From positions 1-27,670 of IMG/VR virus record IMGVR_UViG_3300021499_000009: a stretch of 27,670 nt of DNA; one strand, given 5' to 3'. Below the pieces are notes generated by a model. It ran no database searches. It saw nothing but the letters and a program-made list of their open reading frames with translations, and was not told the origin of the DNA. A program made the translations under genes and the position numbers. Within the stretch, counting starts at the first letter, position 1, and each line of letters starts with the position of its first letter. This DNA is from a virus. Positions 2,731 through 27,048 of the stretch are shown one piece after another.

Positions 2731-3747
2731 ATGAGAAGTATAAAAAGAAAGCTAAAAGTTCCGACTGGTGATATTTGTATAATGCAGGGAGAAAAAAATA
2801 AAGATTTGGAATTTGTTTCTTTGGGTGACTATGGGAAGGAGAAAAACATAAAAGCATCATTTTTAGGGCTACATGAAGAAATTAACGGTGTCCCACATGG
2901 AGACTTGATGCCGTTGGAAGAAAAATGGGTAATCACCATCAGCACACAATATGGATGCTCAATGGGTTGCCTTTTTTGCGATGTACCAAAAGTCGGTATT
3001 GGGATTAATGTGACTAAAAATGATTTAACAAATCAAGTCATAGAAGCAATAAAACTTCATCCTGAAATATTGGCAACAAAAAGATTAAATATTCATTATG
3101 CAAGAATGGGTGAGCCAACTTGGAATGCCGCTGTTTTAGAGCATGTACGAGTTGTTAGGAAAGAAATATATCCTTTTCTTAATAGGTCACTTATTCATCC
3201 TGTTGTTTCAACGATGCTACCGAAAAAAAACAAGTATCTAATGAAATTTTTACAAGATTGGTGTGAAGTTAAAAACTATAATTTTAAAGGGGATGCAGGG
3301 TTGCAGTTTAGTATAAATTCAACATCAGATAGTCAAAGAGAAAAAATGTTTTCCGGGAGTTCTTTATCTTTAAAAGAGATATCAACAATAGGCGAATATT
3401 TACCCGACCCTGTTGGCAGGAAATATACTTTAAACTTTGCGCTTGCAGATGATTATAAAATTGATGCAAGTACGCTTTTGAGCTTTTTTGATCCTAAAAA
3501 ATTTATAGTGAAGGTGACTCCATTACATGATACAAAAGCATGCAGCGATAACCATATAACAACAACAGACGGGTATAATACCTTTTCTCCGTACAAAGAT
3601 GTAGAAGAAAATCTTAAATCTGTTGGGTTCGATGTTCTTGTCTTTATACCTTCACATGAAGAAGATTTGGGCAGAATAACTTGCGGCAATGCTATTCTTT
3701 CCGGCTCAATACCAGCAGTTGCCTATCAAGAAATAAGTTACCCGTGA
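2731..3747 (+). CDS. Radical SAM protein, RlmN/Cfr-like
   Basis: Encodes 338 aa. C76xxxC80xxC83 (CSMGCLFC) is the radical SAM cluster motif, preceded by ISTQYG as in RlmN (VSSQVG). MGEPTWN at 126-132 matches the SAM-binding GEPxxN of RlmN/Cfr, FSINSTSD (193-200) fits the SLHAPND strand, and C318 in ITCG fits the methylated Cys355 of E. coli RlmN (AACG). RlmN and Cfr methylate an adenine of 23S rRNA or tRNA through a protein-bound methyl group. The residue equal to RlmN's resolving Cys118 is Thr69 here, so standard chemistry is in doubt. The N-terminal domain is shorter than in RlmN. AGGAGG precedes the start by 6 bases. The substrate is unknown. Confidence 0.8.
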   Translation: MRSIKRKLKVPTGDICIMQGEKNKDLEFVSLGDYGKEKNIKASFLGLHEEINGVPHGDLMPLEEKWVITISTQYGCSMGCLFCDVPKVGIGINVTKNDLTNQVIEAIKLHPEILATKRLNIHYARMGEPTWNAAVLEHVRVVRKEIYPFLNRSLIHPVVSTMLPKKNKYLMKFLQDWCEVKNYNFKGDAGLQFSINSTSDSQREKMFSGSSLSLKEISTIGEYLPDPVGRKYTLNFALADDYKIDASTLLSFFDPKKFIVKVTPLHDTKACSDNHITTTDGYNTFSPYKDVEENLKSVGFDVLVFIPSHEEDLGRITCGNAILSGSIPAVAYQEISYP

Positions 3748-6541: not shown

Positions 6542-6570
6542 TTGACATATATCTAATAGTGTGTTATAGT
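6542..6570 (+). promoter_or_regulatory. Near-consensus sigma70 promoter
   Basis: TTGACA (6542-6547), a 17-base spacer and TATAGT (6565-6570) give a perfect -35 with optimal spacing and a 5/6 -10. Transcription would start near 6577, about 21 bases before the ATG of the 57-aa gene. It is the strongest host-type promoter I see in the window. Confidence 0.8.
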
Positions 6571-25481: not shown

Positions 25482-25530
25482 TTTTCTTCTCCTACCAGTT
25501 TGTTAAACCAGAGCTTATGCTCCAATAGGG

Positions 25531-26073
25531 TTAAAGTTTAAGTCTTTCTTTCATGTGAATTGAAGCATGGCATGAACGACAAAGAAGTTCCTGATATTCA
25601 TGTTCTTTGTTGTTAAATGTAATATGGTGCATAACGATATCGAATCTGTCATTTTTTTCCACACCACACTTTGAACAAACAAGACCAAATTTTTCAATCA
25701 TTGCTTCTCTCATTTCTCCATGCCTTGTTGCATCCTTGTAAAATTTATTTTGTTCTCTTGTGTGAGCAACATTCTTTTTATTCCATTCACGTTTTCTTTT
25801 ACGTTCTCGGTCAATGTTTTTCTTGTAATATGCGTTTCTAGTTTTTTGAGCTTTCTCTTTATTGTCGTGATACCACTTTTTTGCAGCAAGGTTCGCTCTC
25901 TCCTTATTGCGTCTGCACTCCGCCAACTTACCACATTTCCTCGAACAATATTTTGAATCCGTCCTTTTTGGTTCAAAATCATCTCCGCAATATTCGCATT
26001 CTTTGTTTTCAAGAATTTTGTGATACCTAATAGGTTTACCATTTACAACCTTTGTTCCATAAATAATTTTCAT
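25531..26073 (-). CDS. HNH homing-type endonuclease
   Basis: Encodes 180 aa. The N-terminal part has a treble-clef zinc motif CEYCGDDF ... KYCSRKC (residues about 27-49), and the middle is a long Lys/Arg-rich helical DNA-contact segment (CRRNKERANLAAKKWYHDNK). The C-terminal HNH domain is CSKC (about 133-136), VMHH (about 147-150) and CRSCHASIH (about 165-173), which holds the catalytic His and structural zinc. Free-standing HNH genes are selfish elements that cut phage alleles lacking them. The gene interrupts the structural block between capsid and decoration genes, and its ribosome binding site is sealed in a perfect 15-bp hairpin. Confidence 0.85.
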   Translation of the reverse strand: MKIIYGTKVVNGKPIRYHKILENKECEYCGDDFEPKRTDSKYCSRKCGKLAECRRNKERANLAAKKWYHDNKEKAQKTRNAYYKKNIDRERKRKREWNKKNVAHTREQNKFYKDATRHGEMREAMIEKFGLVCSKCGVEKNDRFDIVMHHITFNNKEHEYQELLCRSCHASIHMKERLKL

Positions 26074-26079
26074 TTTTCA

Positions 26080-26121
26080 ATCTCCTTTTACGGTTTATAC
26101 AGACATACCGTAAAAGGAGAT
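26080..26121 (-). promoter_or_regulatory. 15-bp perfect hairpin over the HNH ribosome binding site
   Basis: ATCTCCTTTTACGGT (26080-26094) and ACCGTAAAAGGAGAT (26107-26121) are exact reverse complements around a 12-base loop. On the minus strand the AAGGAG of the HNH gene lies inside the 3' arm, 8 bases before the ATG; the 5' arm is an anti-Shine-Dalgarno. No T-run follows, so it is not a terminator. The minus-strand loop sequence contains TATAA. Confidence 0.85.
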
Positions 26122-26148
26122 ATTAGTCAATGGTTATTATGTAACTTT

Positions 26149-27048
26149 TTAAACGGCGTGTCCGTAAATGGGGCGCCAATCTGCCCACGATGCACAATAC
26201 CGTTCGTAAACGTACCACATAGCAACAAGCGTATTGGAATCCTGATCCATTTTAATGCCGTCTTTAACACGGTCATACCAAAGGAGGAACTTCTTACAAA
26301 GCTGAGAATCAAGCATAAACCAATTACTTGAATCGGTCAGCCTGTCCCATGTTGCAAGGTTGTAGCGTCCTTTATGGAAGTTCTTGTTATTGTCTGCGGT
26401 GTCTACTTTACCGGATGAATTAATTACTTCATATCCGGTTTCCTCGTTGGCAACGGTACACAGGATCGTGTCATAATTAATAGAAAGAAGTTCTCCCCGA
26501 TCATTAAAAACACTTGTGTGGCCTAACCTACGAGTCGCTTCTATCGAAACAGCCGACATTGCAGTTGCTCCTGCATTGCTCTGGGTGGTTGCATCATCCG
26601 GTGAATACGGATGTGAAGCACTGCAAAGAGGCAAATCATCCGGACCGTCAGTCCCAATAAAAGCACCATTGAAAACTCCGGCTGCTGTTTTCTCTCTTGT
26701 TCTGTCTGCCGATACCGCCATACCCCACGGTCTGCGATCCATAACGCCAAACAGGTCATCATCATAAAGTTTACGCTCTACTTTAAAACCAAGTGCTTTC
26801 TCAGGGAAAGTAAAAGTTTTATCATAAAGCTGGCTCACGGTGTCATAACTGATGGTGCCGTCAAAATCTTGAAGATCACCCATTGCTCCCATGCCGGAAA
26901 CAATCTCGTAAGCTCTGGTTGAACTCTCCATGCCGAAAAGCATTGGAATCATTGACAACTTAATTCTCTCGTCAATTTCGTTAGTGTAAATTTTCTTTAT
27001 TCTGGCATCCAGAAGATCACCAAAATTTTCAGATACTTGAACACTCAT
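26149..27048 (-). CDS. Major capsid protein, Mu gpT / HK97-fold type
   Basis: Encodes 299 aa. The helical N-terminus (LLDARIKKIYTNEIDERI), a central RKLYDDDLFGVMDRRPWGM segment, LPLCSASHPYS and the C-terminal beta/alpha part (FHKGRYNLATWDRLTDSSNW) match gpT-like major head subunits, where the conserved LCSxxHP and DDLFG segments occur in the A/P-domains of the HK97 fold. AAGGAGG stands before the ATG with optimal spacing. The gene is followed by the HNH insertion and preceded by another structural gene. There is no N-terminal delta domain, and the length fits a capsid that uses a separate scaffold or none. Confidence 0.8.
   Translation of the reverse strand: MSVQVSENFGDLLDARIKKIYTNEIDERIKLSMIPMLFGMESSTRAYEIVSGMGAMGDLQDFDGTISYDTVSQLYDKTFTFPEKALGFKVERKLYDDDLFGVMDRRPWGMAVSADRTREKTAAGVFNGAFIGTDGPDDLPLCSASHPYSPDDATTQSNAGATAMSAVSIEATRRLGHTSVFNDRGELLSINYDTILCTVANEETGYEVINSSGKVDTADNNKNFHKGRYNLATWDRLTDSSNWFMLDSQLCKKFLLWYDRVKDGIKMDQDSNTLVAMWYVYERYCASWADWRPIYGHAV

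Follow-up and report, generated by a model that had tools for sequence, protein, structure and literature searches.

The HNH homing endonuclease-like gene behind the major capsid gene of this viral sequence has its Shine-Dalgarno (SD) sequence enclosed in one arm of a perfect 15-bp hairpin. It is likely that the gene was inserted there, that the hairpin locks its ribosome-binding site (RBS) on RNA reading through from the capsid gene, and that a promoter of its own escapes the lock. The features on which this explanation is built can be read in the sequences: the hairpin, its position, a compensatory change in one homologous locus (L005), its re-creation in another (L026), the -35 motif, and the insertion junction. 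RBS sequestration in particular is strongly supported by predicted thermodynamics, by homologues in which letters have changed while pairing is kept, and by a yardstick of phage T4 genes. The window denotes the whole stretch of DNA analyzed, 27,670 nucleotides in length. The genes and hairpin elements concerned are:

26149-27048, minus strand: major capsid protein gene (phrog_371, E 1.5e-8; PF25209, E 1.7e-6), proposed source of the read-through transcript into the HNH gene
25531-26073, minus strand: HNH-type free-standing homing endonuclease-like gene encoding P0001 (180 aa; phrog_1271)
26107-26121, minus strand: 5' arm of the hairpin, ATCTCCTTTTACGGT, the anti-Shine-Dalgarno, located by perfect arm-pair search and folding
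26095-26106, minus strand: loop of 12 nt, ATGTCTGTATAA
26080-26094, minus strand: 3' arm, ACCGTAAAAGGAGAT, holding the SD sequence AAGGAG at 26087-26082

On the minus strand, positions 26121-26107 pair with 26094-26080 without a single mismatch (15/15), as the arm-pair search confirmed for the originally predicted arms and 12-base loop. This is the sole perfect arm pair of at least 15 nt in the window. The chance expectation for such a hairpin in the window is about 0.003 (analytic, loops of 3-60), and none of 60 dinucleotide shuffles of the window contained a comparable one. AAGGAG, located 8 nt 5' of the ATG at 26073, falls entirely within the 3' arm, and the loop contains TATAA; both had been claimed from the sequence beforehand. 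Folding of the minus-strand RNA of 26060-26150, which had been proposed as a check, gives a stable structure (-24.6 kcal/mol, z = -5.9) that was equalled in none of 200 shuffles. A reading of the hairpin as a terminator was rejected: a U-run is missing on both strands, and terminator calling did not call it. An Rfam search of the window returned no families.

P0001 is classed as an HNH-type protein on the basis of its match to phrog_1271 (“HNH endonuclease”, E 7e-8) and the motif CxxC...HH...LLCRSCHAxxH, which is intact in the window protein and conserved in the homologues P0003 and L026. Matches to the Pfam HNH family are marginal (E 0.95 for the window protein, E 0.04 for P0003). The protein is laid out as a zinc-binding-like N-terminal domain, a helical linker, and the C-terminal HNH motif. 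Its AlphaFold model (pLDDT 81, pTM 0.39) retrieved nothing at E < 1 in a fold search of the PDB; because the model has no convincing match there, the nuclease assignment is a sequence-based one. Searches of cultured phages returned no matches to the protein at 1e-5, and those up to E 10 were weak, mostly to mycobacteriophages (WhiB, hypothetical proteins) and unrelated HNH proteins. An SU10-type adaptor gene was also detected and, as the sole pointer to affiliation, hints at a podovirus. Elsewhere in the window, a radical-SAM-like ORF (2731-3747, plus strand) matches phrog_24834 over its full length (E 7.5e-149), a family of unknown function.

Capsid searches yielded more than 80 related loci in viral contigs, nearly all of which lack an HNH gene. 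A homologue of the gene is present in four loci (the window, L005, L026, and L103), in each case directly behind the major capsid gene. Scans of viral contigs with four HNH alignments, and of genomes with one of them, recovered only these homologues and distant HNH proteins; likewise, searching 80 records with one alignment added no further clear homologues. Relative to the window protein, the homologues share 47% identity over residues 1-116 (L005), 58% over the best segment (L026), and 43% (L103), and the L026 capsid is only 30% identical to that of the window. In L005, the HNH domain has been replaced by a short HTH-like end. This gene (L005:4980-5411) retains the N-terminal DNA-binding-like part, the hairpin, and the best promoter of the set, and is possibly a regulator derived from a homing gene.

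The hairpin has been conserved as pairing rather than as sequence. L005 carries a 15-bp stem over AGGAGGT; in pairwise comparison with the window arms, six pairs are unchanged, two changed on one side, seven changed on both sides in a compensatory manner, and none are broken. When the L005 arm was shuffled 200,000 times, no shuffle kept all pairs. L026 has a 17-bp stem in a different register that covers GGAGG together with the start codon. The stems of L005 and L026 both include G-U pairs, which favors an RNA structure over a DNA palindrome. L103 is the weakest of the four cases: no stem covers its SD, which lies mostly in a loop, and its AUG is paired within a larger, differently built structure (-32.7 kcal/mol, z -3.7). 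The original prediction had looked to relatives that carry the gene for a complementary arm; two of the three homologues have one, and in L103 the AUG and its surroundings are masked by other, weaker means. These comparisons involve four loci, of which the window and L005 share an insertion junction and are not independent.

The masking is predicted to be strong by two measures. When the 664 genes with an SD in the window and related loci are ranked by the strength of the stem covering it, the top three places are taken by the window gene (-21.9 kcal/mol, 15 bp), L026 (-26.4 kcal/mol, 17 bp), and L005 (-19.4 kcal/mol, 15 bp). The cost of opening the SD was calculated in a 150-nt context and compared with 662 background genes, for which the median is 2.6 and the 95th percentile 8.4 kcal/mol. 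For the window, it falls from about 14.5 kcal/mol on read-through RNA (rank 2 of 662) to 1.8 on the predicted promoter-started RNA; the corresponding values are 13.8 and 2.2 for L026 (rank 4), 10.8 and 1.8 for L005 (rank 15), and 7.4 and 4.4 for L103 (rank 46), the last being a partial relaxation only. In the comparison with T4, the same code gave 14.9 kcal/mol for the window, 10.2 for I-TevI, 12.3 for I-TevII, 9.4 for segB, and 13.6 for gene e, while the remaining T4 homing genes examined have no SD by the criterion used and were left unscored. By this metric, the window hairpin matches or exceeds these four T4 hairpins.

Strong structure at the start site is not unique to homing genes, since non-homing genes also rank high in both lists (L118, L079, L096, and L104 by stem; L100 and L128 by opening cost). 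The broader idea that HNH genes in general may have masked RBSs was also considered: among the 25 HNH-like genes that have an SD, stems reaching at least -10 kcal/mol in strength are present at six (window, L026, L005, L044, L034, L127), but the non-HNH genes L118, L079, L096, and L104 are comparable. Three of the latter (L118:2427, L096:1844, L104:2495) are members of one family of non-homing genes (MVRAKKKILSVSE...) on capsid-related contigs; their SD-covering stems range from -13.7 to -17 kcal/mol, and they are perhaps another translationally locked gene.

The position of the gene is explained by comparison with relatives that lack it. A block resembling TTTAACCCTAYTGG-stem-CTGGTTTAA follows the capsid gene in HNH-less relatives such as L009 and L001. 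In the window and L005, a similar block instead follows the HNH gene, with the HNH stop codon TAA in its first bases:

25502-25535, minus strand: region of the capsid's ancestral 3' hairpin (TTTAACCCTATTGG...CTCTGGTTTAAC), which now follows the HNH gene; identified by alignment with HNH-less L001 and L009 and with the stretch of L005 behind its HNH-like gene

The ancestral junction TTTAACCC is kept in the window and L005, and the junction is empty of an HNH gene in L001, L002, L009, and others. As the capsid's own 3' hairpin survives downstream, the SD-masking hairpin is an extra element. The same capsid gene is directly followed by LAGLIDADG-type ORFs in three other loci: L084:2748-3164 (PF00961, E 3e-8), L107:3397-3966, and L127:3358-3981 (the latter two by their GFFDGEGC motif). 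The junction therefore appears to be a hotspot that receives homing genes from more than one family. No SD hairpin was found at these LAGLIDADG-like genes. A family of small ORFs (KCFYTKENMDLTG-type, HNH-like by eye) is also present behind capsid genes (L111:3477-3869, L112, L136:4023-4448); the two members tested have no Pfam match, and the SD of L111 lies within a tight CTCTCC-TTA-GGAGGG hairpin.

A candidate promoter begins upstream of the hairpin and extends into it. Its elements in the window are:

26125-26130, minus strand: TTGACT, putative -35, located 57 nt 5' of the start codon; TTGAC[A/T] is present in 4/4 homologues
26102-26107, minus strand: TATGTC, weak putative -10 assigned by position only, at a 17-nt spacer and overlapping the 5' arm end and the loop; the predicted +1 is near 26095

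TTGAC[A/T] is located 57 (window), 59 (L005), 60 (L026), and 48 nt (L103) before the start codon. It thus occurs 48-60 nt before the ATG in all four homologues, compared with 8 of 658 other genes (range 41-75 nt), in a test made after the motif had been noticed. At a 17-nt spacer, the -10 reads TATGTC in the window, TATATT in L005, TACCAT in L026, and TATGCT in L103, giving sigma-70 matches of 8/12, 11/12, 10/12, and 10/12, respectively. Scores of at least 10 are reached by three of the four homologues and by 7 of 658 background genes; the window score is unremarkable, since 220 of the 658 reach at least 8 somewhere in the range. The predicted +1 (the 36th base) is the last loop base in the window, inside the loop in L005, the first loop base in L026, and just before the SD in L103. 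In all four, it is beyond the 5' arm (in L103, the outer arm), so the gene's own transcript is predicted to have a more open RBS, and capsid read-through is not. Promoter activity and a difference in translation between the long and short RNAs are what we infer. Behind the capsid gene, the strict motif is found among the listed relatives only at homing-gene loci and L132. TTGACC stands at the equivalent position in L009, which lacks the HNH gene, and the -35 may thus predate the insertion.

The conserved signal supported by these comparisons is a putative sigma-70-like TTGAC[A/T]-17-(-10). A switch like that of I-TevI had originally been proposed with TATAA in the loop as its promoter. This proposal is largely supported: the homologues back RBS masking and a predicted start past the 5' arm, but the signal itself is sigma-70-like rather than the loop TATAA, and reaches only 8/12 in the window. 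The hairpin loop contains no T4 late promoter (TATAAATA); the window reads TATAAACC. Neither the loop of L026 nor L103 contains TATAA, and its reading as a T4 late promoter was rejected because it is not conserved in the homologues. A separate site at position 6542 of the window (plus strand), TTGACA-17-TATAGT, matches the sigma-70 pattern at 11/12; it lies towards the left end of the window, at a distance from the structural genes, and may be an early promoter.

It is conceivable, though unlikely, that the hairpin is purely a silencer, keeping the gene off on capsid read-through with no working promoter of its own in the window, so that expression is very low or the gene is decaying. The window's -10, TATGTC, with its 8/12 match is in line with this, as is the retention of hairpin and promoter in L005 after loss of the HNH domain, which means that their upkeep need not reflect homing. 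Set against a silencer are the good promoter matches at the same place in L005 (11/12), L026 (10/12), and L103 (10/12), and the intact window ORF with its HNH motif. It seems very unlikely that the hairpin is instead a 3' element of the capsid mRNA (for termination, stability, or processing) that overlaps the SD incidentally. In many HNH-less relatives the capsid gene is indeed followed immediately by a GC-rich hairpin, and in L100 the next gene's start is strongly structured without a homing gene; however, the ancestral hairpin is still found downstream of the inserted gene in the window and L005, the SD-masking hairpin has no U-run in either orientation and was passed over by terminator calling, and the L026 stem runs through the start codon.

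The probability that the inverted repeat acts as DNA, as an operator for the gene's own product or another repressor, is slight. The repeat overlaps the putative promoter, I-TevI is known to repress its own late promoter (PMC2988022), and L005 keeps only the DNA-binding-like part with a C-terminal HTH-like segment. Nevertheless, the G-U pairs of the L005 and L026 stems would be mismatches in a DNA palindrome, the arms share little sequence between homologues, and in each of the three hairpins the SD is among the paired bases. Least probable, and only marginally credible, is that processing by RNase III or RNase E frees the gene in place of a second promoter. Perfect stems of 15-17 bp are possible substrates of RNase III; against this, cleavage by that enzyme affects both arms, and the SD would be damaged. 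RNase E processing has been reported for the transcripts of segB, segG, and Aeh1 mobE (PMC2988022), but TTGACA-17-(-10) is present in the homologues.

The explanation we prefer remains a promoter-equipped lock. A free-standing HNH homing-type gene would have inserted behind the capsid stop codon but ahead of the 3' hairpin belonging to the capsid gene, and brought or acquired its own control region. On capsid read-through RNA, the 5' arm would pair with the SD and leave the HNH gene untranslated. The promoter (-35 TTGAC[A/T] and, after a spacer of 17 nt, a -10 located at or inside the 5' arm or the loop) would start RNA beyond the 5' arm, and only this short transcript would have a usable ribosome site. 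With a host-type promoter, expression is probably early or constitutive and muted on late capsid transcripts. In T4, the lock holds the endonuclease back until late in infection. The order would be the opposite here, because the read-through transcript is that of the capsid gene and presumably late, and the promoter nearer the HNH gene looks host-type.

The hairpins of I-TevI also protect intron splicing. Here, a similar arrangement is seen in an uncultured phage lineage unrelated to T4, at a free-standing gene that has a bacterial-type promoter signal and no intron in need of protection. This suggests a general benefit of the lock to the homing gene or its host operon, and more than one origin or remaking of it. 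We tentatively raise the possibility, which we hold to be less likely than the explanation of the window itself, of a non-T-even family of capsid-adjacent HNH homing genes equipped with a portable control cassette (a sigma-70-like promoter in an RBS-hiding hairpin), rebuilt with new sequence in each phage and with reversed timing; RBS-hiding hairpins would then be a general and convergent rule for homing genes within strong operons. The arrangement provides a search signature for such genes (TTGACA-17 plus an SD-covering stem). It also allows a test of whether a nuclease gene behind the capsid is tolerated only if capsid read-through is untranslatable.

The principle is already known; the phage lineage and the promoter type are new. 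For I-TevI, I-TevII, I-TevIII, segB, and Aeh1 mobE, it has been established or implied that a hairpin sequesters the RBS and that a promoter lies in or beside that hairpin (PMC2988022, PMC3014915). In the open literature, consulted mostly as titles and abstracts, no example of an RBS-hiding homing gene outside T4-type phages was found. The three intron endonucleases of T4, I-TevI, I-TevII, and I-TevIII, resemble the window gene in that a stable hairpin encloses the SD when RNA reads through from upstream; their promoters give transcripts without the 5' arm, as is predicted for the window, and the hairpins of I-TevI (12 bp) and I-TevII (8 bp) are comparable to that of the window in strength. 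They differ in their T4 late or middle promoters and their location in group I introns, whereas the window gene has putative sigma-70-like -35/-10 elements, is free-standing behind the capsid gene, and is probably reversed in timing. By description, mobE of Aeromonas phage Aeh1 is likewise a free-standing HNH gene with its RBS sequestered by an RNA hairpin (PMC2988022, PMC3014915), but it is inserted in nrdA of a T-even-like phage. The free-standing segB of T4 shares the masked SD and has its own predicted late promoter upstream; it differs in encoding a GIY-YIG nuclease, in its location in the tRNA region, and in the T4 late type of that promoter. The lysozyme gene e, a non-homing gene, follows the same RBS-hiding logic with an 11-bp stem, but is a lysis gene with a late promoter. 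In contrast to the T4 group as a whole, the window hairpin is without a T4 late promoter and stands behind a capsid gene of the PF25209/phrog_371 type.
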